From the IMG/VR virus record IMGVR_UViG_3300022221_000020, positions 1 to 29,449 of that record: DNA of 29,449 nucleotides. One strand, written 5' to 3'. The notes under the pieces were generated by a model that was not told the origin of the DNA, did no database searches, and saw only the letters and a program-made list of their open reading frames with translations. The position numbers and the translations under genes are program-made. Of this stretch, positions 1,369 to 28,260 are shown piece after piece. The DNA is from a virus. Each line of letters opens with the position of its first letter. The stretch's first letter is position 1.

Positions 1369-2121
1369 TCAAGTCCAGGACCGGATGATCAGTTCCTTTC
1401 TGGGGGTTCTGCCTTGTTTGCCGACCGTGTAGGTGATGGGCACTGTCTTGATCTTGAGGCCCTTGAACACTCGGCGCATTTCTTTGTGGTCGTTGACGCT
1501 GATGATCATATTGCCCTGGATTGATCCTGCCAGGCTGGCCATCTCTTCGTATTGCTCGATGCCGAATTCGACACCATAGCCTTCGGTGGCCCAGTATGGA
1601 GGATCCAGGTAGAACAAGGTGTGTGGCTTATCATATCGTTTAATGCATGCCATCCAGTCAAGGTTCTCAATGACAACACGTGATAATCGCAGGTGTGCAG
1701 CACTGATATCTTCTTCAAGCCTCAACAAGTTGAGTCGTTTAGGGGATTTGGTGTCGTTGCCAAAGGCATCGCCCAGGGCGGCGAAGCTGGTCTTCTGCAA
1801 ATAAAAGAATCGGGCTGCACGCTGGATATCCGTCAGGGTTTCTGGCTCTTTCGTCTTTTCCCATTCAAATACTTTGCGGGATGTTAAGGCCCACTTGAAT
1901 TGGCGCACGAACTCTTCCAGGTGGTGTTGGATCACTCGGTACAGGTTGACCAGTTCACCGTTGATGTCGTTGAGGACTTCGACTTTGCTTTCTTCTTTTT
2001 TAAAGAGCAAGGCACCGGCACCGGCGAAGGCTTCGACGTAGCAGGTGTGCGGTGGATACAGTGGCAGGATTTTGTCTGCCAGGCGGCTTTTGCCACCCAT
2101 CCAGGGTATAAACGGTTTCAC
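1369..2121 (-). CDS. dam: DNA N6-adenine methyltransferase, D12 class (Dam-like)
   Basis: The enzyme would transfer a methyl group from S-adenosylmethionine to adenine N6 in DNA. The 250 residues open with PFIPWMGGKSRLADKI, typical of the D12 class. The SAM-binding motif I is FAGAG (32-36), LNDIN follows at 50-54, and the catalytic DPPY is at 173-176. The length is normal for the class. The start is GTG at 2121-2119, preceded by AGGAGG at a good distance; an internal ATG lies too far inside the conserved N-terminus. It is the first gene of the terminal block after the tail fibre, the position in which Mu carries mom, so protection of phage DNA from host restriction is a reasonable inference. 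The recognition site cannot be read from the sequence, and GATC is only a guess. Confidence 0.92.
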   Translation of the reverse strand: MKPFIPWMGGKSRLADKILPLYPPHTCYVEAFAGAGALLFKKEESKVEVLNDINGELVNLYRVIQHHLEEFVRQFKWALTSRKVFEWEKTKEPETLTDIQRAARFFYLQKTSFAALGDAFGNDTKSPKRLNLLRLEEDISAAHLRLSRVVIENLDWMACIKRYDKPHTLFYLDPPYWATEGYGVEFGIEQYEEMASLAGSIQGNMIISVNDHKEMRRVFKGLKIKTVPITYTVGKQGRTPRKELIIRSWT

Positions 2122-2310: not shown

Positions 2311-3417
2311 TTAATGTGCTGCTGCTACCTTGTATATTTTGTTGTCAGCTGGTGATGTACCCCAAATATGCACACCATCAAAGACCAACCAATCAATACT
2401 TGTTGATGGAAACTGCACTTTTAATGTTGCTACCTCTTCAGAAATATCAACTTTGCTAACCGATGAATCAGTCGTGTGGCCTAGCCATACATGACTGCCA
2501 TCACCTGCGATACCCTGTACTCCTAAAGCTGTAAATAACACAGTCGCAACAACGGTATTTGTTGCAATATCGATTTTTGATAACGATTCGCCCACATTGT
2601 TTACTACCCATACATGAGTGCCATCAAACACAGCGTTTTCTGGTGCATCCCCAACTATAACAGTAGCGTCGACCACGTTTGTTGAAATATTTATTTTTGA
2701 GACGTTGTCTGACAAGTAATTGGCCGTCCAGATATGAGTTCCATCAAAACAAGCCGCTCTTGGGTTAGTGCCAACCGTCACCGTAGCAACAACAGCATTT
2801 GTTGATATGTTTATTTTAGAGACGTTGCTACTTGTGTAATTCACAACCCATATAAACTCTCCATCAAACACTATACCTCTTGGAGCGCCTCCTACTGTTA
2901 TTGTGGCAACAACAGTATCTGTTGAAATATTTATTTTTGAGACTGTGTTATCCGTCAGGTTAGATACCCAAATAAATCCGCCACCGTAAGCAACATACTG
3001 CGGGCTTGATCCGACAGTAACGGTTGCAACGACGGTTTCAGTTTCTACGTCTATTTTTGATACTGTTCCGGCTGTGTTGTTAGCCACCCAAATATGGCTA
3101 CCATCAAAGGCTGCTCCTCTTGGATCGGTACCAACTGCGATTTCAGTTTTCCTTTTCAAGGATAAATTAAGATCTAATGTTTGCGCCAACAATGGAATAT
3201 TATTTGCTCGGCCATATATTTTTTTGGAAAGCCCCTTATGCAATTGATTGTCGTCAGCGGATCCAGGTGTTAAACCGCACCACTCGACAATTTTTATCAA
3301 CTCTCTTTGGACAGTATTAAACCAGGGTGCCTTCCCATGCGTTGGGCCGGGCGATGTTTCTGTCCATTCTTTTGCGCCATCTGCAGTGGCTGGGGTGTCA
3401 TCTCCAATCTTATGCAT
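2311..3417 (-). CDS. Tail fibre with seven-bladed beta-propeller (YVTN-like repeats)
   Basis: Residues 1-70 (HKIGDDTPATADGAKEWTE...FNTVQRELIKIVEWCGL...DDNQLHKGL) resemble the N-terminal attachment region common in phage tail fibres. From about residue 92 to the end there are seven tandem units of about 40 residues with the pattern P-R-x-x-x-F-D-G-x-x-I-W-V-x-N...V-S-K-I-(D/N)-I-x-T-x-x-V-V-A-T-V. This is the hallmark of YVTN/NHL-type beta-propellers; seven units make a closed ring. ATG at 3417 is chosen because AAGGAG precedes it at the right distance and it overlaps the gp48 stop by 8 bases. The longer frame to 3540 only shadows gp48. Its place just after gp48 is where Mu-like phages carry the fibre, so host-receptor binding is the likely role. 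No separate chaperone gene is seen. Confidence 0.85.
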   Translation of the reverse strand: MHKIGDDTPATADGAKEWTETSPGPTHGKAPWFNTVQRELIKIVEWCGLTPGSADDNQLHKGLSKKIYGRANNIPLLAQTLDLNLSLKRKTEIAVGTDPRGAAFDGSHIWVANNTAGTVSKIDVETETVVATVTVGSSPQYVAYGGGFIWVSNLTDNTVSKINISTDTVVATITVGGAPRGIVFDGEFIWVVNYTSSNVSKINISTNAVVATVTVGTNPRAACFDGTHIWTANYLSDNVSKINISTNVVDATVIVGDAPENAVFDGTHVWVVNNVGESLSKIDIATNTVVATVLFTALGVQGIAGDGSHVWLGHTTDSSVSKVDISEEVATLKVQFPSTSIDWLVFDGVHIWGTSPADNKIYKVAAAH

Positions 3418-4012
3418 AGAGCTGCTCCTTATAAGTGTATGTAATTGAATATTTCTCGGTGGCACCATAAGTGAAAGTGGGCACGGCATGGGCCTGGTTG
3501 AGTCGCATGAAGACACACTCCAAAGCCTTTTCATCTCCATAGGTTCTTAATGGCTCACCGACTGAATGACCTGCACCTTCACCGACGCTCCAGACTGTGG
3601 CCTCTACCCCTGGCACCTTGATCTCATAATGATGCGGTGTGACTTTGTCGGCGATGGTGATGGTGAAGCCCATCTGCTTGGCGACTTCAACCAGGTATGG
3701 GATGTTGTGGCCACCGTTGCCATAGTGTCTGCCAGCCACTGCTGCCTGGCGTTCGGCGATGGTGGGTGATGCGTTGCTGCAGGTGTCGGGCAGGCCGTGG
3801 GCGGCTTCCCACTCTGGTAGCAGTTCAACGGCTTTGGCCGGGTTGCTTTCTACTTCGATCAATAACATCACACGTTGATGGAGTGCATAAAAGGCATCAC
3901 CAATGGCGTGCATGAAGGCAGCCAGGTTGGCGGTGATGTCTCTGGTCCAGGCTCGGCCCCTGGGCAGCAGGGCCAGCAATTGATCGCGATAGTTGCTGGC
4001 GTTTATGGCCAT
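3410..4012 (-). CDS. Baseplate/tail-fibre connector, Mu gp48-like (DUF2313)
   Basis: The 200 residues begin AINASNYRDQLLALLPRGRAWTRD, the characteristic opening of the Mu gp48 family (YmfQ/DUF2313). Then come ELLPEWEAAHGLPDTC and a GFTITI...PHHYEIKVPG stretch that match the family layout. The protein is thought to link the baseplate wedge to the tail fibre in contractile tails. It follows gp47 with a 10-base overlap and overlaps the fibre gene by 8 bases, so translation is probably coupled. The length is typical and all expected segments are present. Confidence 0.88.
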   Translation of the reverse strand: MAINASNYRDQLLALLPRGRAWTRDITANLAAFMHAIGDAFYALHQRVMLLIEVESNPAKAVELLPEWEAAHGLPDTCSNASPTIAERQAAVAGRHYGNGGHNIPYLVEVAKQMGFTITIADKVTPHHYEIKVPGVEATVWSVGEGAGHSVGEPLRTYGDEKALECVFMRLNQAHAVPTFTYGATEKYSITYTYKEQLYA

Positions 4013-6195: not shown

Positions 6196-7235
6196 CAGGC
6201 CGACTCCTGTTCTTCTGCAGGCAGTGGAATGAGCTGCAGGGCTTCAGGTGGTATCAAGGTGAGATTGGTTTTCTCGCCTTCATCATCCAGCACATATTCG
6301 AGTTCGTTGATTAACAACCATTGATCAATGATGCCCATATATCCATCGATGACCTTGACCAGGCGATTGGTTCGCCAGATGTCATCCTCATGCTGCCAAC
6401 CGGCAACGACGTAGGTGACCTGTCGACTGCGGCCATAGTTGACATTGCGTTGCCACTCGGCGCGCTGTTTCATTTTTGCCAGACCAGGTGCATCGTCGAC
6501 CACGATGACCGTGGGCCGGTAACGCATGCGAACGTCTTCGGCCTGACCTGCAATGTGGGCCGAGGCGGCACCGTTGTTGTTGCTCCATCCAGATTGTTGG
6601 CCAGAGGTATAGTAGTGACTGAACCGGTCCTGCATGCTGAAGTCACCTTCGGCAGAGAGGATGTTCTGCCCCAGGATCAATGGTGTGGCGATGCGCTCAT
6701 TGCCTGCGCGGGTGATAAACAGATCACCGGCTTCATCACAGGTAAGTCGAACGGCATGCAGGCGGGCCTGATCAACCAGGTAGCTATATATTTTTTGACC
6801 AGGGTCAATTCGTTCCACACGGATGCTGCTATCAAAACCATCGACATCAGTGATTGCCTCAAGACCAAAGGGTTTGACCAGGGCCTGGGCCACTTCCATG
6901 AAGGTCTTATTATTAAATTCATTTTTTTCTTGTTCAGCGATGGGCAAGCTGCAGTCCACCAGGTCGGCGGTTTTGCTTCGACCAATCGCCTGCACGCTAC
7001 GCTGACCGGCATCATAGACTGGCCGCATGTTATCGATGTAACCGGTGAGAACAAGCTCATCATCAAGTTCAATGGTGCATTCGCTGCCTGCCCGGATGGG
7101 TCGAAACCCATCGTCATGAATGTCAGTGAGTTCAAGCTCAAACTTGTCGGCCACACTCTCCAGCGATTTGGTGAGGCTGACTGATTTCCAGCCTTTATAA
7201 TCATAGCCATTGATCTTGAGGACCAGCTCAGTCAC
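6192..7235 (-). CDS. Baseplate hub protein, Mu gpP-like
   Basis: The 347 residues open TELVLKINGYDYKGWKSVSLTKSLESVADKFELELTD, matching the Mu gpP (gp44) hub family, a relative of T4 gp27 and P2 gpD. PIRAGSECTIELDDELVLTGYIDNM and RSKTADLVDCS follow, as expected. The protein forms the trimeric hub on which the spike sits. The start is GTG at 7235, overlapping the N stop by 8 bases. A plus-strand frame covering the same bases is a shadow. No defects are seen. Confidence 0.92.
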   Translation of the reverse strand: MTELVLKINGYDYKGWKSVSLTKSLESVADKFELELTDIHDDGFRPIRAGSECTIELDDELVLTGYIDNMRPVYDAGQRSVQAIGRSKTADLVDCSLPIAEQEKNEFNNKTFMEVAQALVKPFGLEAITDVDGFDSSIRVERIDPGQKIYSYLVDQARLHAVRLTCDEAGDLFITRAGNERIATPLILGQNILSAEGDFSMQDRFSHYYTSGQQSGWSNNNGAASAHIAGQAEDVRMRYRPTVIVVDDAPGLAKMKQRAEWQRNVNYGRSRQVTYVVAGWQHEDDIWRTNRLVKVIDGYMGIIDQWLLINELEYVLDDEGEKTNLTLIPPEALQLIPLPAEEQESAW

Positions 7236-8394
7236 TTAGCACCTCCAGCTTTTCACCGGCTGGCACAAACAATGGGTGGCTGAGATTGTTGCGTTCGATG
7301 ATTTCATCGGCACGGTCTGAATCACCATAGAGCCGATAGGCCAGGACCAGGGCAGGTTCTTGCACCAGACCAACATGCTCAACCAGCCTTGGTAACTTGG
7401 CACCACGTATGGCCAGGTCTGTGCTGACAGAAGTGCGCAAGGCCATGAGGGATTGATAGACGTTGTCGTGGATCGGGCTGGCATCCACGGCACTCTCGAA
7501 TTCAAGCTGGGCATCGATGGCGGCATTGATGTTGTCGCGCCAGCGAATGGCATCGTTACTGGTGGCGAAGGTAGTGGTGCTGGTGAGCCTGGCGGCCTCG
7601 GCAATGGCGGCACGGCGTGTCAGGCCGTGCATGTGTTCGATGTTGGCGGCCTGCTTTTCCCGGTTGCTGGTGGTGGTGGGTGTGGCAGGTGAATTTTCTC
7701 CAGCATTAAATAACTGTTTAAGGCCGTTTAATGCCCGTTCGGGTTCTTCCACGGCGGTGCTGATGCGGGCAATGGAACCGGTGATAAGGGCAGCCATGTC
7801 ACCGGGGGCACGAATCACAGCAGCAATGGGGCCGGTGATGGAGCCGACCAGGTTCTCGACAGCAGCAAAGGTGTTGTCGATTTCATCCACCACACCCTGC
7901 ACATAGTCGGCAGCCTGACCCAGCACACTGAAGTTTTCAGCAAAGTCATCGATGGAATCGGCCAGGGTTTTATCGGCCGCATCACCCACCACACTGGCGG
8001 TGTCGACACCGGCAGCAGGATAGGCAGGCTCACCAGCTTCCAGGAAGGTGGCGGTGAAACTACATCGACCACCCTGGCTGGTTTTTTCGTCTGAACTCCA
8101 GGTGTCCACCACCACCTGCAGTTTGCCGTGGCGTGGATGGTTCAGTTGACCAGGGCCTTCGGCATCCAGGGCATCGATGAGCTTGTCACGCTGTTTGTCG
8201 TAGTTGTCACCGTCAACAAAGAAGTCGAGAAAATAGGCGCGTGTTTTTTTGCCATTGTCTTCGACCCAGCCGATCTCTTTTTTGGGGTATTCATGGGCCT
8301 GGGTACGTCGACCCCCTGTGGTGCGGTTGGAGGGGCAGACAAACTCGACACCTCGGAAGTCACCTTTGGCATTGAAGCGACGACGCCAGGACAT
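7228..8394 (-). CDS. DNA circularisation / tail protein, Mu gpN-like
   Basis: 388 residues. The N-terminus (SWRRRFNAKGDFRGVEFVCPSNRTTGGRRTQAHEYPKKEIGWVEDNGKK) followed by ARAYFLDFFVDGDNYDKQRDKLIDAL-type sequence matches the Mu gpN family (DNA circularisation protein, N-terminal). The middle (150-235) is Ala-rich with membrane-like helices; the C-terminus ends PLFVPAGEKLEVLSD, a LysM-like binding segment as in T4 gp53-type proteins. In Mu, gpN is a baseplate component. The start has AGGAGG eight bases upstream, directly after a TATATATA tract. Its 5' side abuts the divergent plus-strand gene at 8430. Confidence 0.9.
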   Translation of the reverse strand: MSWRRRFNAKGDFRGVEFVCPSNRTTGGRRTQAHEYPKKEIGWVEDNGKKTRAYFLDFFVDGDNYDKQRDKLIDALDAEGPGQLNHPRHGKLQVVVDTWSSDEKTSQGGRCSFTATFLEAGEPAYPAAGVDTASVVGDAADKTLADSIDDFAENFSVLGQAADYVQGVVDEIDNTFAAVENLVGSITGPIAAVIRAPGDMAALITGSIARISTAVEEPERALNGLKQLFNAGENSPATPTTTSNREKQAANIEHMHGLTRRAAIAEAARLTSTTTFATSNDAIRWRDNINAAIDAQLEFESAVDASPIHDNVYQSLMALRTSVSTDLAIRGAKLPRLVEHVGLVQEPALVLAYRLYGDSDRADEIIERNNLSHPLFVPAGEKLEVLSD

Positions 8395-8421
8395 TACACT
8401 GGCCTCCTATATATATAGAGG
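8372..8421 (+). promoter_or_regulatory. Possible promoter and ribosome binding site for the inserted plus-strand gene
   Basis: TTGAAG (8372-8377) and TACACT (8395-8400), 17 bases apart, form a fair sigma-70 pair inside the first codons of gpN, pointing right. They are followed by the palindrome CTATATATATAG (8407-8418) and AGAGG (8417-8421), eight bases before the ATG at 8430. The same AT tract lies just upstream of the AGGAGG of gpN on the other strand, so the two start regions overlap back to back. The promoter call is by eye. Confidence 0.4.
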
Positions 8422-8429
8422 ATGGAACC

Positions 8430-8780
8430 ATGCGAATGCTGATCATATTGCTGGCCCTGCTGCCGTTGAGTCTGCAGGCTGAACAGACGCCACGGGGCAC
8501 GGTGTTTGGCTATGAATGCAAACAGGTGAACAAGATGAAGGTGGGCTTTTCCTGCCAGTTCAAAAAGAATGGCGACCTGCATTTTCAATGGCACATTAAA
8601 CCGGCCAGCATGAGCGAAGCAAAACGAGAACGACCAGTGTATGAATTTGAAAAAATTGCGCTGAGATATATTCAACTCGGAGGCAAGGACTTTTCTATTG
8701 GCTTTGATCACTGGACGAATAACAAAGTGCGTCATTGTTATAGAAAAAGTGATCATCATTATTATTGTGCGGGTGACTAA
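8430..8780 (+). CDS. Secreted small four-cysteine protein, moron-like
   Basis: The 116 residues begin with a clear Sec signal peptide: Arg at 2, hydrophobic core LIILLALLPLSL, and probable cleavage after LQA near residue 17. The mature part of about 99 residues has exactly four Cys (in YECK, FSCQF, RHCYRK and YYCAG), suited to two disulfides in the periplasm. It is basic, with a His/Tyr-rich end (KSDHHYYCAGD). It is the only plus-strand gene within the late cluster and fits the gap between gpN (starts 8394) and the tape measure (ends 8783) almost exactly, with its own AGAGG. That is the pattern of a moron: a gene inserted later and expressed on its own, often in the lysogen. The function is unknown; altering the cell envelope or blocking superinfection is a guess. 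Confidence 0.75.
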   Translation: MRMLIILLALLPLSLQAEQTPRGTVFGYECKQVNKMKVGFSCQFKKNGDLHFQWHIKPASMSEAKRERPVYEFEKIALRYIQLGGKDFSIGFDHWTNNKVRHCYRKSDHHYYCAGD

Positions 8781-8782
8781 CA

Positions 8783-10090
8783 TCACTGCACCATCCTCTC
8801 TGAACCGGTATCCACATCCACCTTCATGTCCCTGGTCTGCAGGGATTTGACTTTGACCTTGGCATCCTTCGATTCAATTTCGACTTTGAGTTTGCCTTCG
8901 GGCTGTGGCTGTTTAGCTTCCTGTTGTTGTGGCCCTTTCAAAAATTGTGAATAGAACTTCGTGGTTATGTTAAACCACCGATCCAGTACATCGACGGAAG
9001 TACTCTTCACATCTTCGATCCTGGCGTTGCTGGTTTTGGCCATGCGGGTACTATCACCAATGATGACAGAGCCATCAGCATTGACCTGCATAAACTTGTT
9101 GAGGGTGTCCAGTTTTCCCGTGCGTTGAAATTCTGAGCCAACAAAGTTGAAAGCACGCATGGCTTCTGCATCAAAGATGGTGCCGAGTTTGGTTTTCTGA
9201 CCTTTTGATTTTTGAATAATCTCGGCCAACAATTCATTGATGGGTCGGAGTACTTCTTTACCTTTTTCGAGCTGTTCAGCATCGAACACTTCAATGCCAG
9301 CCAGGTCGCGAAGTTGTTTCACCTTTACCGGATCGGTCAATGTTCTGATGGTGGCTTCCCATGCGGTGGCTGCCTGTTCCGCATTGCCGGTACCCATACG
9401 GATCACCTGCAGGGCCGCACCCATCTCCAGCATGGCTTTGGTACCTGTGCGACCGGTTGAGGTATAGGCAGTAATGACACGAGGGCCAAGTCTAGCCAGG
9501 TTCTGCAGAGTGAATGCGCCTTCCTTACCTTGCACGGTTAATATGTCCAGCACCTTCAATACTTCATCCGGGTCTTTGATGCCCATCTTTTGCAACTCAG
9601 CGGCAATGGAACCGATGGCCGGGCCTTCGGCACCGGTGGCCTGGATGGCCAGTGCCAGGTTGCGAATGTTCTTTTGTGCAAATTCAAGGTCGCCGGTCTT
9701 CTCAACGATCTCTTCTATCGCGCCAAGGACCTTGGTGGGATCAACACGCACATCTGATGCTTGCGCTGTTTCAAACACCTGACGACGCAGATTGGTGGCC
9801 TTTTCTGGTGACACCTTGGCCTGCACGCCGAGCCGTTCATAACGTTCTTCAAGCGATAACAAATGACGACCGGCACCAATGGCTGCTGCACCGGTTGCGA
9901 AGGGGGCAAAGTTTCTCAGCATGCCACCACCAGAAAATGATTTATTAAGCTTGGCAGTTTTACGATTCAGTTTTTCGATATCACGCTGGCCACGGGTGCT
10001 GAATTTTTTAATGGAATCAGAAAACTTGCGGGCACGCTTTTGCAAGTTGCCTTTCAGATCAATAGTGACTGATGTATTGAGTTCACCCAT
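8783..10090 (-). CDS. Tail tape measure protein
   Basis: 435 residues. A basic coiled N-terminus (KGNLQKRARKFSDSIKKFSTRGQRDIEKLNRKTAKLNKSF) is followed by a short hydrophobic stretch (APFATGAAAIGAG) and the conserved TP901-type core: ERYERLGVQAKVSPEKATNLRRQVFETAQ through LDILTVQGKEGAFTLQNLARLGPRVITAY. The protein sets tail length and is threaded through the tube. The C-terminus is charged with Lys/Gln/Val repeats. It is short for this role, which predicts a short tail. The ATG (10090) overlaps the end of the gp42-like frame by 8 bases. Mu has the tape measure in the same place, after gp41/gp42. Confidence 0.88.
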   Translation of the reverse strand: MGELNTSVTIDLKGNLQKRARKFSDSIKKFSTRGQRDIEKLNRKTAKLNKSFSGGGMLRNFAPFATGAAAIGAGRHLLSLEERYERLGVQAKVSPEKATNLRRQVFETAQASDVRVDPTKVLGAIEEIVEKTGDLEFAQKNIRNLALAIQATGAEGPAIGSIAAELQKMGIKDPDEVLKVLDILTVQGKEGAFTLQNLARLGPRVITAYTSTGRTGTKAMLEMGAALQVIRMGTGNAEQAATAWEATIRTLTDPVKVKQLRDLAGIEVFDAEQLEKGKEVLRPINELLAEIIQKSKGQKTKLGTIFDAEAMRAFNFVGSEFQRTGKLDTLNKFMQVNADGSVIIGDSTRMAKTSNARIEDVKSTSVDVLDRWFNITTKFYSQFLKGPQQQEAKQPQPEGKLKVEIESKDAKVKVKSLQTRDMKVDVDTGSERMVQ

Positions 10091-14987: not shown

Positions 14988-16355
14988 CTATAAATCTTTC
15001 ACTGACCGGCGTGGGGTCAGATCATTAAAGTGATAATCGTGAGACAGGTCGTTGATAGCATAACGATGTGTCAGGTCATTGAACCCTGGTGCATTAATCT
15101 CACCGAGTTGCTTTTCAAATATCTGTGCAGCTTGCGCATAGGAATACGACAGGCCATCAAACAAGGTGAGCAGATGATCCTGTGTAGCGTTCGCGGCTTC
15201 GGCATAGCTGTCGCTATACGCTGGCATGATGCTCAGGTTGTAAACCACATCAGAACTGATCGTGACAGACTCAGCAAAGCTGGCTGATTCGGCATCATCA
15301 ATTGATAACTGATGATCCTGAGTGACGGTGACATCATCAGCATAGCTGTCGCTATACGCACCTAATGGTGTGAGGTCATACGCTTGCGCAATGGCCACTG
15401 CCTCGGCCTCGGCCTGGGCGATGGCTTCATTCACATCAAATTGATGATCCTGTGTCAGCGTAACAACATCAGCAAAGCTGGCCGACTCGGCATTGCTGGC
15501 TGATAGCTGATGATCCTGTGTGAGGGATGGTGTAGCAGAAAAAGCGGCCGACTCGGCATTGTCTGCGGTCAGGCTGTGACCGACTGCAGCCGACACCGGC
15601 ACCCAGGAACCCGATGCAGCAGGTCTTAATAACTGGAACTGGTCGCGGTAATAACGAAGATATTCATCTTCATCGATGTATCGACCTGGCCAGATGGCGG
15701 CGGTGTAGATGCCACCGGTTAATTCAAAGGCTGTGGCAGGATAAACATTCCACCTATTACCCAATGAAAGATTGATATTTTGCCGGGTGTTTTTTGTCGA
15801 TATGCTTGTACCATCGACACCGTCATCCAAATATGTCGTGATGAGATTGGCACCGTGATCCCTTGCCATGCCCACCATGTGAAAGTTTCCGTCTGCCACA
15901 CTAGTCACACCAGGAACCACAAGACTCGCTGACCTGAAGGTCATCACGCCAGCATCCAGATAAAACTGAAATTCAACCGCAGAACCATCACGTTTGCCCA
16001 TGATGGTGCTGTCGATATCAGTGGTGCGTATTGTTGCAATCATGGACAACAGATCAACCGAGGTATCAATATCGACACGGCTTTTTGTGCCGCAATCTAA
16101 ACCATCACCTGTGCCATCCAATTCAATATGCATACCATTTGCATCTACCTCCCAGACAGCATTGCCAATCAACACACCATGATTGCCGTTGACATAGTCA
16201 TAAGCCATGCCACTGCCCTGGTTGATGACCCAATAGCCTGCGAGGTGATCAAAGAATTCATTGTCCTGGTCCAGGACAACATTGCCCAATGGCTTTTGAC
16301 CAGGGATTAATAACTCTGGCGCATGGATCAGCTTGTCGAGTTCAAACCCCATCAA
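14988..16355 (-). CDS. LamG-domain virion protein with tandem Ala-rich repeats
   Basis: 455 residues. About 38-245 form a LamG/concanavalin-like jelly roll (HLAGYWVINQGSGMAYDYVNGNHGVLIG..., then IATIRTTDIDSTIMGKRDG..., DGNFHMVGMARDHG, and GGIYTAAIWPGRYIDEDEYLRYYRDQFQLLRP). Such domains usually bind glycans. Residues 255-412 are tandem repeats built on TQDHQLS and AESASFA or YSDSYA. The end (424-447) has three NDL(S/T)(H/P) units. It starts by overlapping the upstream gene (TGATGATGG). Its position among head-side genes, away from the tail fibre, suggests a capsid fibre or decoration that adheres to surface sugars. That role is inference. Confidence 0.82.
   Translation of the reverse strand: MMGFELDKLIHAPELLIPGQKPLGNVVLDQDNEFFDHLAGYWVINQGSGMAYDYVNGNHGVLIGNAVWEVDANGMHIELDGTGDGLDCGTKSRVDIDTSVDLLSMIATIRTTDIDSTIMGKRDGSAVEFQFYLDAGVMTFRSASLVVPGVTSVADGNFHMVGMARDHGANLITTYLDDGVDGTSISTKNTRQNINLSLGNRWNVYPATAFELTGGIYTAAIWPGRYIDEDEYLRYYRDQFQLLRPAASGSWVPVSAAVGHSLTADNAESAAFSATPSLTQDHQLSASNAESASFADVVTLTQDHQFDVNEAIAQAEAEAVAIAQAYDLTPLGAYSDSYADDVTVTQDHQLSIDDAESASFAESVTISSDVVYNLSIMPAYSDSYAEAANATQDHLLTLFDGLSYSYAQAAQIFEKQLGEINAPGFNDLTHRYAINDLSHDYHFNDLTPRRSVKDL
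15120..15593 (-). repeat. Degenerate tandem coding repeats in the LamG protein
   Basis: The repeated protein unit is about 24-30 residues, built on TQDHQLS followed by AESASFA or YSDSYA. At DNA level GATGATCCTG recurs four times (near 15173, 15311, 15445, 15512), and a 20-base stretch (GCATAGCTGTCGCTATACGC) is identical at 15202-15221 and 15340-15359. Such identity in a fast-changing region points to recent unit duplication or recombination. Confidence 0.8.
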
Positions 16356-22543: not shown

Positions 22544-23053
22544 TCACTGCCCCAGCACTTTGGCAAAGTGGATGACGTTGTCAGCCTCTATCTTGGGTGG
22601 CTCTTCAGTATCCCCATACTTAGCCCTGGCCCATTCGCACAGCAGTGGTATCAGCTTGGATTTTGTATCCGGATCAAGATCCGGTCTGCTTATCTCGACG
22701 GCTTTAATCACCGCCTGTAATAACCCTAGGTCATCTAGGGGGGAATACAACCTGTCAGATTTGGCAGTGGCATATTCAGAATCAGCACTCTCATTGATCA
22801 TGAAAACTTTTCGATCACCGGCATGACCTGGCTGATATTGACCGGCTTCATCTAATCGCTTTCCAGTCACTATATATAAGACGTCGGCCCCCTGGTCTGC
22901 AATGGCAGCCAGGTATTCTGCATCGGGGGAGCGTTCATCCCTTTCATAAAGGCCCTGGCTTTTCCTGCCCACACCACCAATGTCACCGAACTGGGTCTGA
23001 TTGTGCCCAATTCGTTTTCGTTCTTCTTCTAGTCTGTTTCCTATCGTGGACAT
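22544..23053 (-). CDS. c: Phage repressor (c-type), XRE helix-turn-helix
   Basis: 169 residues from the ATG at 23053, chosen because STIGNRLEEERKRIG is the normal start of this class; the longer frame to 23101 runs through the operator palindrome. The HTH region is about 1-65 (GNRLEEERKRIGHNQTQFGDIGGVGRKSQGLYERDERSPDAEYLAAIADQGADVLYIVTG). The C-terminal part (PLDDLGLLQAVIKAVEISRPDLDPDTKSKLIPLLCEWARAKYG) lacks a LexA-type protease fold, so induction is not by simple RecA-driven self-cleavage. It faces ner across a 123-base control region, as Mu c does. It should keep early genes silent and its own gene controlled. Confidence 0.85.
   Translation of the reverse strand: MSTIGNRLEEERKRIGHNQTQFGDIGGVGRKSQGLYERDERSPDAEYLAAIADQGADVLYIVTGKRLDEAGQYQPGHAGDRKVFMINESADSEYATAKSDRLYSPLDDLGLLQAVIKAVEISRPDLDPDTKSKLIPLLCEWARAKYGDTEEPPKIEADNVIHFAKVLGQ
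22992..23009. promoter_or_regulatory. Operator candidate O2, imperfect
   Basis: TGGGTCTGATTGTGCCCA shares one perfect half-site (GTGCCCA) and the overall 18-base layout with the perfect site at 23077-23094, but its left arm differs at three positions. It lies inside the repressor gene, 85 bases from the other site. Confidence 0.45.
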
Positions 23054-24533: not shown

Positions 24534-25520
24534 GTGAGCAAGAACATCGCCATCCCCAACCACATCGCCAAATTTGTTGAAGGCTTACAACTCACCCCCG
24601 TTGATCAACTGCCAGGACTGACCCCTGAAAAGCGTGTCGATGCTGCCGGTTTTGGTTTGAAGCTGGAACTGGCCGGTAAACTCTATGCCGGTTTTGCCCT
24701 GCTTGGCCTGAAGGATGAAATGGGCCACGGCATGTATATGGCCGAGCTGGCCAAACGCAGCATCCCGGCAAGGTCGGCATCCCGTTGCGTGAGCCTGGCC
24801 ATGCTGGCCACACGAGTGCCAGCATCAAACTGGCCAACGTTGGCCAATTTAGAACCCAGCAAGCTGGAGCTGATCACCGGCTGGGAAGACAAGGAGATCA
24901 AAACCTTCTGCAAGGGCGATGAGGTTCGCGGCATCACTATTGATGATGCAACCGAATCATCGGTGCGTGAACTCAATGGCCTGTTAAAACAGGCCAACCT
25001 GAGCAACAACGAACTGGCACAGCAAAATGAAAAGCTCACCAAATTATTAGCCAGGACTGAAGAAAAAAACAAACTGCTCACCAAAAAGAATCTGGAACCG
25101 GAAGGCTTCATCTATCCCGCCAGTGTTGAGAAGGTGCGCATTGAATCATCGGTGCTGGCCAGCCTGGCCACCACCTGCATCGACGATCTGGAACAGCACA
25201 TGATCGATCTTACGCAGGCCAGTGACCTGAGCAAAGACAAAAACAAACAGCTTGCCGAATTTGGTGCCGGTGCCACTGCCCTGTATCTCAACATCAAGGC
25301 CATTCAATCAAAGGCCAGTTACCTGTTGACCTGGTTCATTGAATCCATTGGTGAGGACTATGTCACCGATGACCCGGAAAGCATTCCCACCATGACCGAA
25401 CAGGAAGCCCTGCGCATCAAGAGCATGCACGAGGTGATGTTAAGCCAGCACCGGGCTGAACAACTGGCCCGTGAATCGAAGCGCAAAAGCCATCGTCGGA
25501 GTAAAGGCAATAAAAAATGA
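24534..25520 (+). CDS. Early coiled-coil protein upstream of transposase
   Basis: 328 residues from the GTG at 24534, seven bases after AAGGAG. N-terminal domain (about 1-105): VDAAGFGLKLELAGKLYAGFALLGLKDEMGHGMYMAELAKRSIPARSASRCVSLAML. This is similar in style to DUF3102-type proteins. Then follows a long coiled coil (about 140-190: LNGLLKQANLSNNELAQQNEKLTKLLARTEEKNKLL) and a helical domain with a basic end (ESKRKSHRRSKGNKK). It overlaps transposase A by 4 bases. A DNA-binding or partition-like role in replication or transposition control is inference. It contains the palindrome copy at 24831-24846. Confidence 0.75.
   Translation: MSKNIAIPNHIAKFVEGLQLTPVDQLPGLTPEKRVDAAGFGLKLELAGKLYAGFALLGLKDEMGHGMYMAELAKRSIPARSASRCVSLAMLATRVPASNWPTLANLEPSKLELITGWEDKEIKTFCKGDEVRGITIDDATESSVRELNGLLKQANLSNNELAQQNEKLTKLLARTEEKNKLLTKKNLEPEGFIYPASVEKVRIESSVLASLATTCIDDLEQHMIDLTQASDLSKDKNKQLAEFGAGATALYLNIKAIQSKASYLLTWFIESIGEDYVTDDPESIPTMTEQEALRIKSMHEVMLSQHRAEQLARESKRKSHRRSKGNKK
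24831..24846. promoter_or_regulatory. 16-base perfect palindrome, copy 2
   Basis: TGGCCAACGTTGGCCA lies inside the 328-residue early gene, where it encodes WPTLAN. The 14-base core GGCCAACGTTGGCC is identical to that at 22451-22470, where it encodes RPTLAD. Both lie in the regulatory half of the genome. Confidence 0.5.
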
Positions 25521-27199
25521 GAACCACAGTTCAGCGTGCAGGATTTCATAGCGTGACAACCAAGCAACTGGCCACCACGGATGATGCCTGGAGCCGCCTG
25601 CCAGAGAGCAAGCGCAAGGTGGCCAATGATCGCAACAAGATTGTCGCGGCCGTGAAGCAGCTCATCGATGATGACTATTCTCAACGTGCCGCCATTGAAT
25701 TGCTGCTGCTGCGCATTGACGCCAATGAAGCCGATGATGCCTTAATCGAGATCGCCAGAACCCTTGGCCGGGCTGGCAAGCCACCGGGCTATTCCACCGT
25801 CAAGCGCTGGATGGATGATTATAATAACTATGGTCTGGTCGGCCTGGCCCCCAGCCACAAGGGCAGCGAATCAAAACAATACGGCTGGGAAGTGCGCGCC
25901 CTGCATTTATATAGCCTGCCATCAAAACCTTCCATCAGTGCCGTGGCGCGCAAGTTGATTGCTGAAGGGTTTGACCACGTCACCGAAACCCGTGTGCGTC
26001 GTTTCATCAACAACCTGCCAGCCGACAAGGCCGAACTGAGTCGGGGCCGGTTGGGTACCAAACTGTTCAACAACACCCAGAAGACATTCAAACGCCGCAG
26101 CACCGAGAACCTGCCAGTCGGGGCATTGTATAGCGGTGACGGTCACACCCTGGATGTGTACCTGCAGCACCCCAGTGGTAACAAGCCGTGGCGTGCGGAG
26201 TTGACTCTATATATAGATGTAACCAGTCGCACCATCGTCGGCTGGTATGTGAGCGAGGCAGAAAGTGCCCACAGCACCCTGTTTGCATTGAGTCATGCCC
26301 TGATCACCCTGGACCACATTCCGGCCTATCTGCACATTGATAATGGCTCGGGTTATAAAAACAAAATGATGAGTGATGATGCCACCGGCTTTTATGACCG
26401 GTTCGGTATGAGCGTGATGCACTCGCTACCCTACAACGCCAAAGGCAAGGGCCATGTGGAACGCTTCTTTAAAACAATGGAGTGTGACTTCAACAAGTGG
26501 TACCCATCTTATTGTGGTGCCGACATGGCCGATGAGGCCGTTCAGCTTTTATTAAAGAAACATAAAAAGGGTGAGGTGCAATTGCCCACTCTCGATCAGT
26601 GGTGCCACGACTTTGAACAGTGGCTGGAACAATACCACAACACCAAACACCGTGGCCTGAATGGCAAGACCCCTGCCGAAGTCTGGGCCACGCTGGAACG
26701 CCACCCAGTGGAACCTAGAAGTGCAGCCATCTTCTGGCCACGCACCACCCGCACCGTGAGTCGTGAATGTGTTCGACTGGATAACCGTGAATACATGGCC
26801 CCTGAACTCATTCAATACAACAGTCGCCAGGTGCAGATTGAATACAACCTGCATGACGATGGCTTTGTGCGCGTGATGGATAACAAAGGCCGCTGGGTAT
26901 GCGACGCCAAACTGGTGAACAAAATCGACTACCTGCCCACCAGCCGACTTGAAGAAGCCAAACAGAAAAGACTGCAAAGCCAGATCAAACGACTGGAAGT
27001 GCATGCCAATGAAAAGCGTGAACGTGCCGGACTGGCGATCACGCATGACCAGGTTCTGGGTGATGTGGAGCAGCTTGTGAACAACACGACTGCATTGCCT
27101 GAAACAAAAACGGGACCAGCGCTCACTGATCCCGATTTAAACCAGCTTGATGATTTGCTTGAGCTGGATATCACCGACACATCCTATATCGACGACTAA
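25517..27199 (+). CDS. A: Transposase A, Mu-type DDE recombinase
   Basis: 560 residues. The N-terminal DNA-binding region (about 1-195) has helix-turn-helix-like units (AAIELLLLRIDANEADDALIEIARTLGRAG, PGYSTVKRWMDDYNNYGLVGLAPSHKG). The RNase H-fold core holds the catalytic triad Asp208 (SGDGHTLD), Asp275 (HIDNGSGY) and Glu315 (GKGHVERFF). The C-terminal beta-barrel is followed by a helical tail (EEAKQKRLQSQIKRLEVHANEKRERAGLAITHDQ) and an acidic end that probably contacts B. The length is somewhat less than Mu A because the enhancer-binding part is reduced. It should cut and join the phage ends during integration and replication. It overlaps the upstream gene by 4 bases. Confidence 0.95.
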   Translation: MRTTVQRAGFHSVTTKQLATTDDAWSRLPESKRKVANDRNKIVAAVKQLIDDDYSQRAAIELLLLRIDANEADDALIEIARTLGRAGKPPGYSTVKRWMDDYNNYGLVGLAPSHKGSESKQYGWEVRALHLYSLPSKPSISAVARKLIAEGFDHVTETRVRRFINNLPADKAELSRGRLGTKLFNNTQKTFKRRSTENLPVGALYSGDGHTLDVYLQHPSGNKPWRAELTLYIDVTSRTIVGWYVSEAESAHSTLFALSHALITLDHIPAYLHIDNGSGYKNKMMSDDATGFYDRFGMSVMHSLPYNAKGKGHVERFFKTMECDFNKWYPSYCGADMADEAVQLLLKKHKKGEVQLPTLDQWCHDFEQWLEQYHNTKHRGLNGKTPAEVWATLERHPVEPRSAAIFWPRTTRTVSRECVRLDNREYMAPELIQYNSRQVQIEYNLHDDGFVRVMDNKGRWVCDAKLVNKIDYLPTSRLEEAKQKRLQSQIKRLEVHANEKRERAGLAITHDQVLGDVEQLVNNTTALPETKTGPALTDPDLNQLDDLLELDITDTSYIDD

Positions 27200-27216: not shown

Positions 27217-28260
27217 ATGCCAAGAACCACTCACACACAAAGCCTGATGGATATCCCTGAATCGTATTCTAAGAAGTATACGGATCAGGACATCAATCAA
27301 GTTCAGGTTATTATCGACTGGATTAACGAAGGTCAGGATCATGAGCCGGGCTATCAACATCAACGCTCGGTCACCAAGCTGGCCAAAGCCGCCAACATGA
27401 ACGACTCAACGCTGGGTGACATTTTGCGTGGCAAGTATCCCAGCCCACCCACCAAACACATTGCCAAGGCAATGGATGCCATTCGCATGCATGAGCAACG
27501 TGAGGCCGAAGGTGTGCATGATTGCCCATTGGTTGAAACGTCAGTATTTAAAACCGTGAATGCAGCCTGCAAGCGTGCCCATGTTCGGCGCAACTTTGCA
27601 GTCGTGTCGGCCTTTGTGGGCACCGGCAAAACCCGCGCCCTGAAAAACTACGCGGCCAATCATTCTAATGTCTATCTGGTTGAAGCCACCCCCGACATGA
27701 ACGCCAGTGTCTTGATCAGTGAGCTGGTGACATTGACCAATGCCGTGGTCCACAAAACCAATAAATACAGTTATGGCACCAAGGCCGAGAAAATGGCCGC
27801 CATCATTCGCACGCTGAAGGACACCAACAGCCTGCTGATCATGGATGAGGCCGAGACCGTATCACCTGCCACGCTGGAATATGTTCGCCGTATTTCAGAC
27901 AAGGCCCACATCGGTGCTGTGCTGGCGGGTACCGAACGGCTCAAACCTTTACTCAAAGACCCGCACGGTCGGTTCGGGCAGATCAGTTCGCGCACTGGCT
28001 TCTGGCCCAGGGTCATCAAAGGCATCACCGAGGACGATGCGGTTGCCCTGGCCAGGGCTTCATTCGATAAAAAACACAAGCTCACCGATGAAGTGCTGGA
28101 TGCCCTCTGGCAAATGTGTGATGGCTCGGCCCGTGTGCTGGTGTCTTCACTCATCCCTGGCATCAAGGACTATGGCCTGAGCAAGGGCATCAAGTTATCA
28201 CCCGAGCTGGTTTTCCGAGTTGGCCAGCAGGTTCTGGGCTTTACACCACGGAGGACATGA
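27217..28260 (+). CDS. B: Transposition ATPase B, AAA+ target-selection protein
   Basis: 347 residues. The N-terminal helix-turn-helix (about 45-85: RSVTKLAKAANMNDSTLGDILRGKYPSPPTKHIAKAM) binds DNA. The AAA+ core has Walker A GTGKT at 135-139 and Walker B LLIMDEAE (D210, E211). Other features are GTERL (a sensor-type loop) and a helical C-terminus (LVSSLIPGIKDYGLSKGI). In Mu, B polymerises on DNA, brings targets to A and gives immunity to insertion nearby. It follows A after a 17-base gap with AAGGGGAG. Confidence 0.94.
   Translation: MPRTTHTQSLMDIPESYSKKYTDQDINQVQVIIDWINEGQDHEPGYQHQRSVTKLAKAANMNDSTLGDILRGKYPSPPTKHIAKAMDAIRMHEQREAEGVHDCPLVETSVFKTVNAACKRAHVRRNFAVVSAFVGTGKTRALKNYAANHSNVYLVEATPDMNASVLISELVTLTNAVVHKTNKYSYGTKAEKMAAIIRTLKDTNSLLIMDEAETVSPATLEYVRRISDKAHIGAVLAGTERLKPLLKDPHGRFGQISSRTGFWPRVIKGITEDDAVALARASFDKKHKLTDEVLDALWQMCDGSARVLVSSLIPGIKDYGLSKGIKLSPELVFRVGQQVLGFTPRRT

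Follow-up and report, generated by a model that had tools for sequence, protein, structure and literature searches.

The junction between the genes for the tape measure protein (TMP) and gpN in Mu-like phages is, on comparison of gene content across relatives, a dedicated cargo slot. In the window (the whole stretch of DNA analyzed here, a complete virus record of IMG/VR with 29,449 bases and no host genome), this slot is occupied by a gene for a four-cysteine (four-Cys) protein, and comparison with related sequences strongly supports its status as a moron. We consider it very probable that the gene is part of an independent moron cassette that encodes an envelope protein. The best explanation, which we give an even chance of being correct and which leans on analogy with known systems, is that a cassette in the TMP-gpN slot supplies a periplasmic product that would cause superinfection exclusion at DNA entry. 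More tentatively, though still as a serious candidate, we propose that in a large Mu-like group the junction may serve as a promoter-equipped exchange slot for interchangeable superinfection-exclusion proteins from at least five unrelated envelope-aimed families, lying antisense so that they would be on in the lysogen and turned off by late transcription.

By its gene content, the window phage is transposable and Mu-like, and its tail is contractile. Besides the MuA- and MuB-type genes (Table 1), it carries genes on the minus strand for a major head protein, a protease, the sheath, the tube, a gp41-type chaperone, TMP, and gpN. Between positions 22544 and 28260, late genes and a putative helix-turn-helix repressor are on the minus strand and the transposase genes on the plus strand; this reverses the layout of Mu and B23 and is the same in the L002 contig. 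The preliminary description had placed a plus-strand gene tightly between TMP and gpN, within a tail cluster on the opposite strand and with its own ribosome binding site. This placement was borne out, as the ORF was found, its borders were identified by PHROG and Pfam, the main neighboring genes are on the minus strand, and a ribosome binding site lies at the expected place.

Table 1. Positions of the features of the TMP-gpN slot and of the transposition genes in the window
Feature	Position	Strand	Basis
Four-Cys exported-type protein gene, slot family A, 116 aa, ATG start	8430..8780	plus	ORF; 75% identical homologue at same place; dN/dS 0.13; six-member family
Signal-peptide-like N-terminus, residues 1-17, MRMLIILLALLPLSLQA	8430..8480	plus	Sequence; hydropathy 2.92; low model confidence there
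Codons of C30, C42, C103, and C113	8517..8768	plus	Invariant in 6/6 homologues (alignment)
Shine-Dalgarno GAGGA of slot gene	8418..8422	plus	Sequence; GGAGGA in L002
Shine-Dalgarno GGAGG of gpN, divergent from that of slot gene	8403..8407	minus	Sequence
Promoter-like site TTGAAG-17-TACACT; -10 directly upstream of gpN start codon, -35 inside gpN coding sequence	8372..8400	plus	Sequence
Antisense shadow ORF, 130 aa, judged non-gene	8394..8786	minus	Open in window and L002, but dN/dS >1
gpN (DNA circularization/baseplate hub), downstream border of slot	7228..8394	minus	PHROG 184, E 7e-93; Pfam DNA_circ_N, E 2e-26
TMP, 435 aa, upstream border of slot	8783..10090	minus	PHROG 973, E 3e-54; Pfam PhageMin_Tail
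MuA-type transposase	25517-27199	plus	PHROG/Pfam
MuB-type protein	27217-28260	plus	PHROG/Pfam

The strand of the gene required testing, because a minus-strand ORF that is also open in L002 likewise fills the 388-base gap that separates the TMP stop at 8783 from the gpN start at 8394 (both on the minus strand). Differences between the window and L002 fall on plus codon positions 1, 2, and 3 in the numbers 19, 12, and 54, and the maximum likelihood dN/dS for this pair is 0.14/1.08 on the plus strand and 0.36/0.17 on the minus strand. Together, the codon-position pattern and dN/dS point to a plus-strand gene under purifying selection with the minus ORF as its shadow; the minus ORF was thus ruled out as a true gene, and the plus-strand gene is, judged by its substitutions, real. 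It is very improbable, and already contradicted, that the slot gene is a late-expressed tail or lysis component or that the minus ORF is a real gene of the tail operon. Although the minus ORF touches both the TMP stop codon and the gpN start codon, the substitutions favor the plus strand, the four-Cys gene is absent at 65 junctions and in Mu, unrelated genes replace it in the slot, and its signal peptide-like start and cysteines are conserved.

The homologue in L002 is 75% identical over its full length and lies at the same junction in the same orientation, the corresponding identities being 71% for gpN and 31% for TMP. The TMPs of both are short, with 435 aa in the window and 447 aa in L002 (L002:4363-5706 (-)), compared with 560-650 aa in most relatives. 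The GC content of the slot gene in the window is 45%, that of gpN 57%, and that of TMP 50%. A single terminator-like hairpin is present within TMP (8828-8846 (+)), but shuffled sequences give 0.9, so there is no excess over chance.

Six members of the four-Cys family, designated family A, were found: those of the window, L002, L024 (a Chromatiales MAG), L129 (a viral contig), L183 (a gammaproteobacterial MAG), and L184. In each case, the gene occupies the TMP-gpN junction and runs against the tail operon, and each of the six proteins begins with a signal-peptide-like N-terminus as judged by hydropathy. Their alignment retains only ten invariant columns, four of which are the cysteines, in agreement with the earlier proposal that the product would be an exported protein of the disulfide type. 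Only 3 of the 369 genomes of the class contain a match to family A, and all three matches are in the TMP-gpN slot. The AlphaFold model of the window protein is good (mean pLDDT 85.3, pTM 0.75) and predicts a helix, two strands, a second helix, and three strands in this order; the low model confidence at residues 1-17 is as expected for a cleaved leader. Searches with the four-Cys protein against PHROG, Pfam, PADLOC, and PDB sequences gave no useful match, a plasmid search gave none, and Foldseek found no match to the model in PDB or BFVD at E <=0.001. The best VIA-align rows were designed mini-proteins and small periplasmic domains (secretion-ring modules, the pilotins AspS/EpsS, and PA3611); their Z of 4-8 is in the range of common small alpha/beta arrangements, and we do not claim them as homologues. 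A tblastn match to a Bacillus phage was weak (E 0.2) and was disregarded. Neither by sequence nor by fold does the four-Cys protein have a recognizable relative of known function.

For a comparison of TMP-gpN junctions among related phages, which the preliminary description had suggested as a check on presence or absence of the gene, 157 loci were retrieved from bacterial genomes and viral contigs with gpN as bait, annotated phages were added, and Mu was examined separately. TMPs were assigned by a TMP similarity search and near-duplicates were removed, leaving 109 non-redundant Mu-like junctions. L024 was included by hand because its TMP is too divergent for the seed search; other loci lacking a recognized TMP were left out of this count. 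The gap between the two genes is bimodal: it is shorter than 100 bases at 65 junctions (empty), at least 200 bases at 41 (filled), and in between at 3. The junction of Mu is empty. At 38 of the 41 filled junctions, an ORF on the opposite strand ends about 15 bases or less from the TMP stop, and a hydrophobic N-terminus of the signal or membrane type is present in 35 of these 38 ORFs, compared with 113 of 1068 antisense control ORFs (11%). The three slot ORFs below the cut-off encode a membrane protein just under it (L145), a protein with a hydrophobic C-terminal tail (L033), and an addiction-module antidote protein (L004). In a minority of cases, the junction holds a larger insert or one on the same strand, namely an addiction module with an antirepressor-like gene (L004:1336-3491), an HEPN-like gene (L021:2250-3439), and two unidentified ORFs (L056:4738-5990).

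Grouped by eye and by alignment, the cargo of the slot falls into at least five unrelated families, A to E, plus singletons. Family A comprises the four-Cys proteins. Family B proteins have about 68 aa with membrane segments and are sometimes duplicated in tandem, within one ORF in L057:5595-5975 and L127:2072-2431 (-). Families C and D are exported-type proteins that occur singly except in L163, where they are fused in a protein of ~290 aa with family D as its N-terminal and family C as its C-terminal half (L163:4093-5001 (-)). Family E combines membrane segments with a hydrophilic part. Pairs from families B, C, and D are under purifying selection. In a Pfam scan of the opposite-strand slot representatives, none reached the cut-off except the antidote of L004. 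PADLOC models likewise gave no match for most slot representatives, and the sole match among those scanned was a weak one of L016 to a generic 2TM effector model (E 8e-4).

The cargo is exchanged between otherwise similar phages. L031 (family B) and L032 (family E) are 98% identical in gpN DNA and 94% identical at the 3' end of TMP, and L043 (family D) and L047 (family B) are 92% and 89% identical in these regions, while the cargo is unrelated in both pairs. The gpN genes of B23 (family C) and L120 (family D) are 86% identical, and the leaders of their cargo genes, including the -10 element and the ribosome binding site, are nearly identical. Presence and absence also vary, since L144 carries family E and L142 and L143, with gpN 93% identical, are without cargo. 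Strict pairing of cargo and TMP is unsupported, because the cargo changes while the 3' end of TMP stays 94% identical. The GC content of the cargo is below the mean of its two neighbors in 37 of 37 loci, with a median difference of 9 points.

A promoter-like site precedes the slot gene in the window, matching the consensus at 8 of 12 positions and staying under the cut-off of a generic promoter scan; both of its hexamers are retained in L002, where the spacer has drifted. A hexamer TAnnnT is present on the cargo strand, no more than 14 bases from the gpN start codon, at 33 of the 41 cargo loci and at 4 of the 65 empty ones; for the extended -10 form [TG]GnTAnnnT, the numbers are 29 of 41 and 1 of 65, respectively. 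Because the motif was spotted on the first few loci before counting and related phages are not independent, the p-values of about 1e-15 overstate the certainty, although the contrast itself is large.

The cargo is oriented against the late operon. In B23, a Marinobacter/Alteromonadaceae phage, only 3 of the 50 genes run against the rest: the slot gene, one gene that lies upstream of ner in the repressor position, and one at the right end. Similarly, the slot gene (ORF44) of the Chromohalobacter phage YPCBV-1 shares its reversed orientation only with ORF1, which encodes a helix-turn-helix protein (PMC9769972). The transposase gene shares the cargo strand in the window and L002, where the tail genes are opposite, and in the L024 genome a MuA-like gene 25 kb away is on the tail-gene strand. 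Across these layouts, the cargo thus consistently runs against the late operon, irrespective of how the early region is oriented.

The preliminary description had recognized the signature of a moron in this gene, and the empty junctions (Mu included), the swapped cargo, its consistently low GC content, and the promoter-like site at cargo loci all support this view. It had also set against a moron the case of a tail part with the same strand arrangement everywhere. The uniform arrangement was indeed found, with six homologues at the same place on the same opposite strand, but the cargo is dispensable and swappable and is no tail gene.

What the moron does for its carrier is a separate matter. 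The main rival to exclusion at DNA entry, which we regard as less likely, is a lysogenic-conversion moron that benefits the host in some way other than phage exclusion, such as in stress, inhibition of periplasmic or cell-wall enzymes, or competition, with the slot being merely a tolerated insertion point. All of the moron evidence fits such a role equally well, and the same-strand inserts with addiction module, antirepressor-like, and HEPN-like genes indicate that the junction can hold other functions. However, a generic insertion point leaves unexplained why nearly all of the opposite-strand cargo is aimed at the envelope and why two cargo families are fused in one protein.

In the reading that we prefer, superinfection exclusion at DNA entry, the cassette would consist of a promoter-like site, a ribosome binding site, and one envelope-protein gene, read against the late operon. 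Because it is antisense to the tail operon and has a putative promoter of its own, the slot gene could be expressed from a silent prophage, and late transcription would run over it once the lytic cycle starts. The signal-peptide-like start and the four invariant cysteines suggest that the four-Cys product may be exported to the periplasm and form two disulfides. There, it might stop the tape-measure/baseplate machinery of an incoming phage, or the inner-membrane partner of that machinery, from passing DNA into the cell. We infer this last step with less certainty; it draws on the bias toward the envelope that unrelated families share, on the fusion of two such families, and on the precedents set by HK97 gp15, TP-J34 Ltp, and P22 SieA.

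All three precedents are envelope proteins of prophages that keep DNA from entering the cell, and for gp15 and Ltp, the changes that allow escape map to tape-measure genes (PMC10883804). HK97 gp15 is described as an inner-membrane protein that blocks DNA injection, and phage hybrids with other tail tube/TMP genes escape it (PMC10883804). Like the slot genes, gp15 is a small envelope protein (62 aa, annotated as a moron product) encoded beside TMP in the tail cluster, but its gene is on the tail-gene strand and upstream of TMP. By eye, gp15 has a single membrane segment; the four-Cys protein is another type of protein. Homology of family B to gp15 is unsupported, as comparison with the family B profile gave -1.6 bits and the best BLASTP E was 8.7, i.e., no similarity. 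Ltp of Streptococcus phage TP-J34 is an exported prophage protein that blocks DNA injection, targets TMP, and is regarded as a moron (PMC3952083; PMC10883804); it differs in being a lipoprotein of a Gram-positive host and is not known to lie in a TMP-gpN slot. SieA resembles the proposed product as an envelope protein that is expressed from a prophage and prevents the entry of phage DNA (PMC10883804), but is an inner-membrane protein of a short-tailed phage with an unrelated genome context. A soluble periplasmic protein would be an untypical form for an entry blocker when compared with the membrane proteins gp15 and SieA and the lipoprotein Ltp, and this counts against exclusion at entry.

It is also conceivable, but quite improbable, that exclusion acts at the receptor, with the periplasmic protein binding or altering an outer-membrane receptor from inside, like T5 Llp or phi80/N15 Cor, so that related phages do not adsorb. 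A small exported-type protein with disulfide-type cysteines would suit this role, and receptor inactivation is a common route of exclusion (PMC11436027; see also PMC9586334). Contrarily, the window protein is without a lipobox cysteine and hence no lipoprotein, the inner-membrane-type segments of families B and E are ill suited to a receptor plug, and the slot is flanked by TMP and gpN, with no receptor-binding genes beside it.

Morons, reverse morons, and exclusion genes beside TMP have all been described before. The 'reverse moron' gp23 of HK97 is, like the slot gene, an annotated opposite-strand moron within the tail cluster, but it lies between I and J and overlaps its neighbor gp22. The regions of genomic plasticity known from Mu-like phages of Pseudomonas are similar as fixed sites with variable small genes; they lie mainly in the left genome arm, and the passages considered mention neither a TMP-gpN opposite-strand envelope slot nor a shared promoter element (PMC4378225). 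In the open-access papers searched, we found no description of one slot that combines many unrelated envelope families with a constant antisense orientation and a promoter element next to the start of gpN, and a description outside open access is possible.

Morons and exclusion proteins have mostly been discovered singly. The slot would offer a fixed address as a search rule for small envelope-acting prophage genes: the opposite strand of the TMP-gpN junction, behind a -10 element beside the gpN start. This rule already yields at least five uncharacterized families, with no strong Pfam, PHROG, or PADLOC match among the members scanned. If the proposed exclusion role is true, the slot families would form a testable set for studying how lysogens keep Mu-like phages from delivering their DNA, and the antisense layout would be a simple way to switch expression between lysogeny and the lytic cycle.

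Other genes of the window lie farther from the slot. The tail cluster has a gene for a D12-class adenine-specific DNA methyltransferase at its left end (1369-2121 (-)). Downstream of the baseplate genes, a protein of 409 aa (2311-3540 (-)) has a YNCE-like beta-propeller match and may be a tail fibre or a receptor-binding component. Between the head and tail genes, a 455-aa protein (14988-16355 (-)) has a weak PHROG tail-fibre match (E 5e-5).
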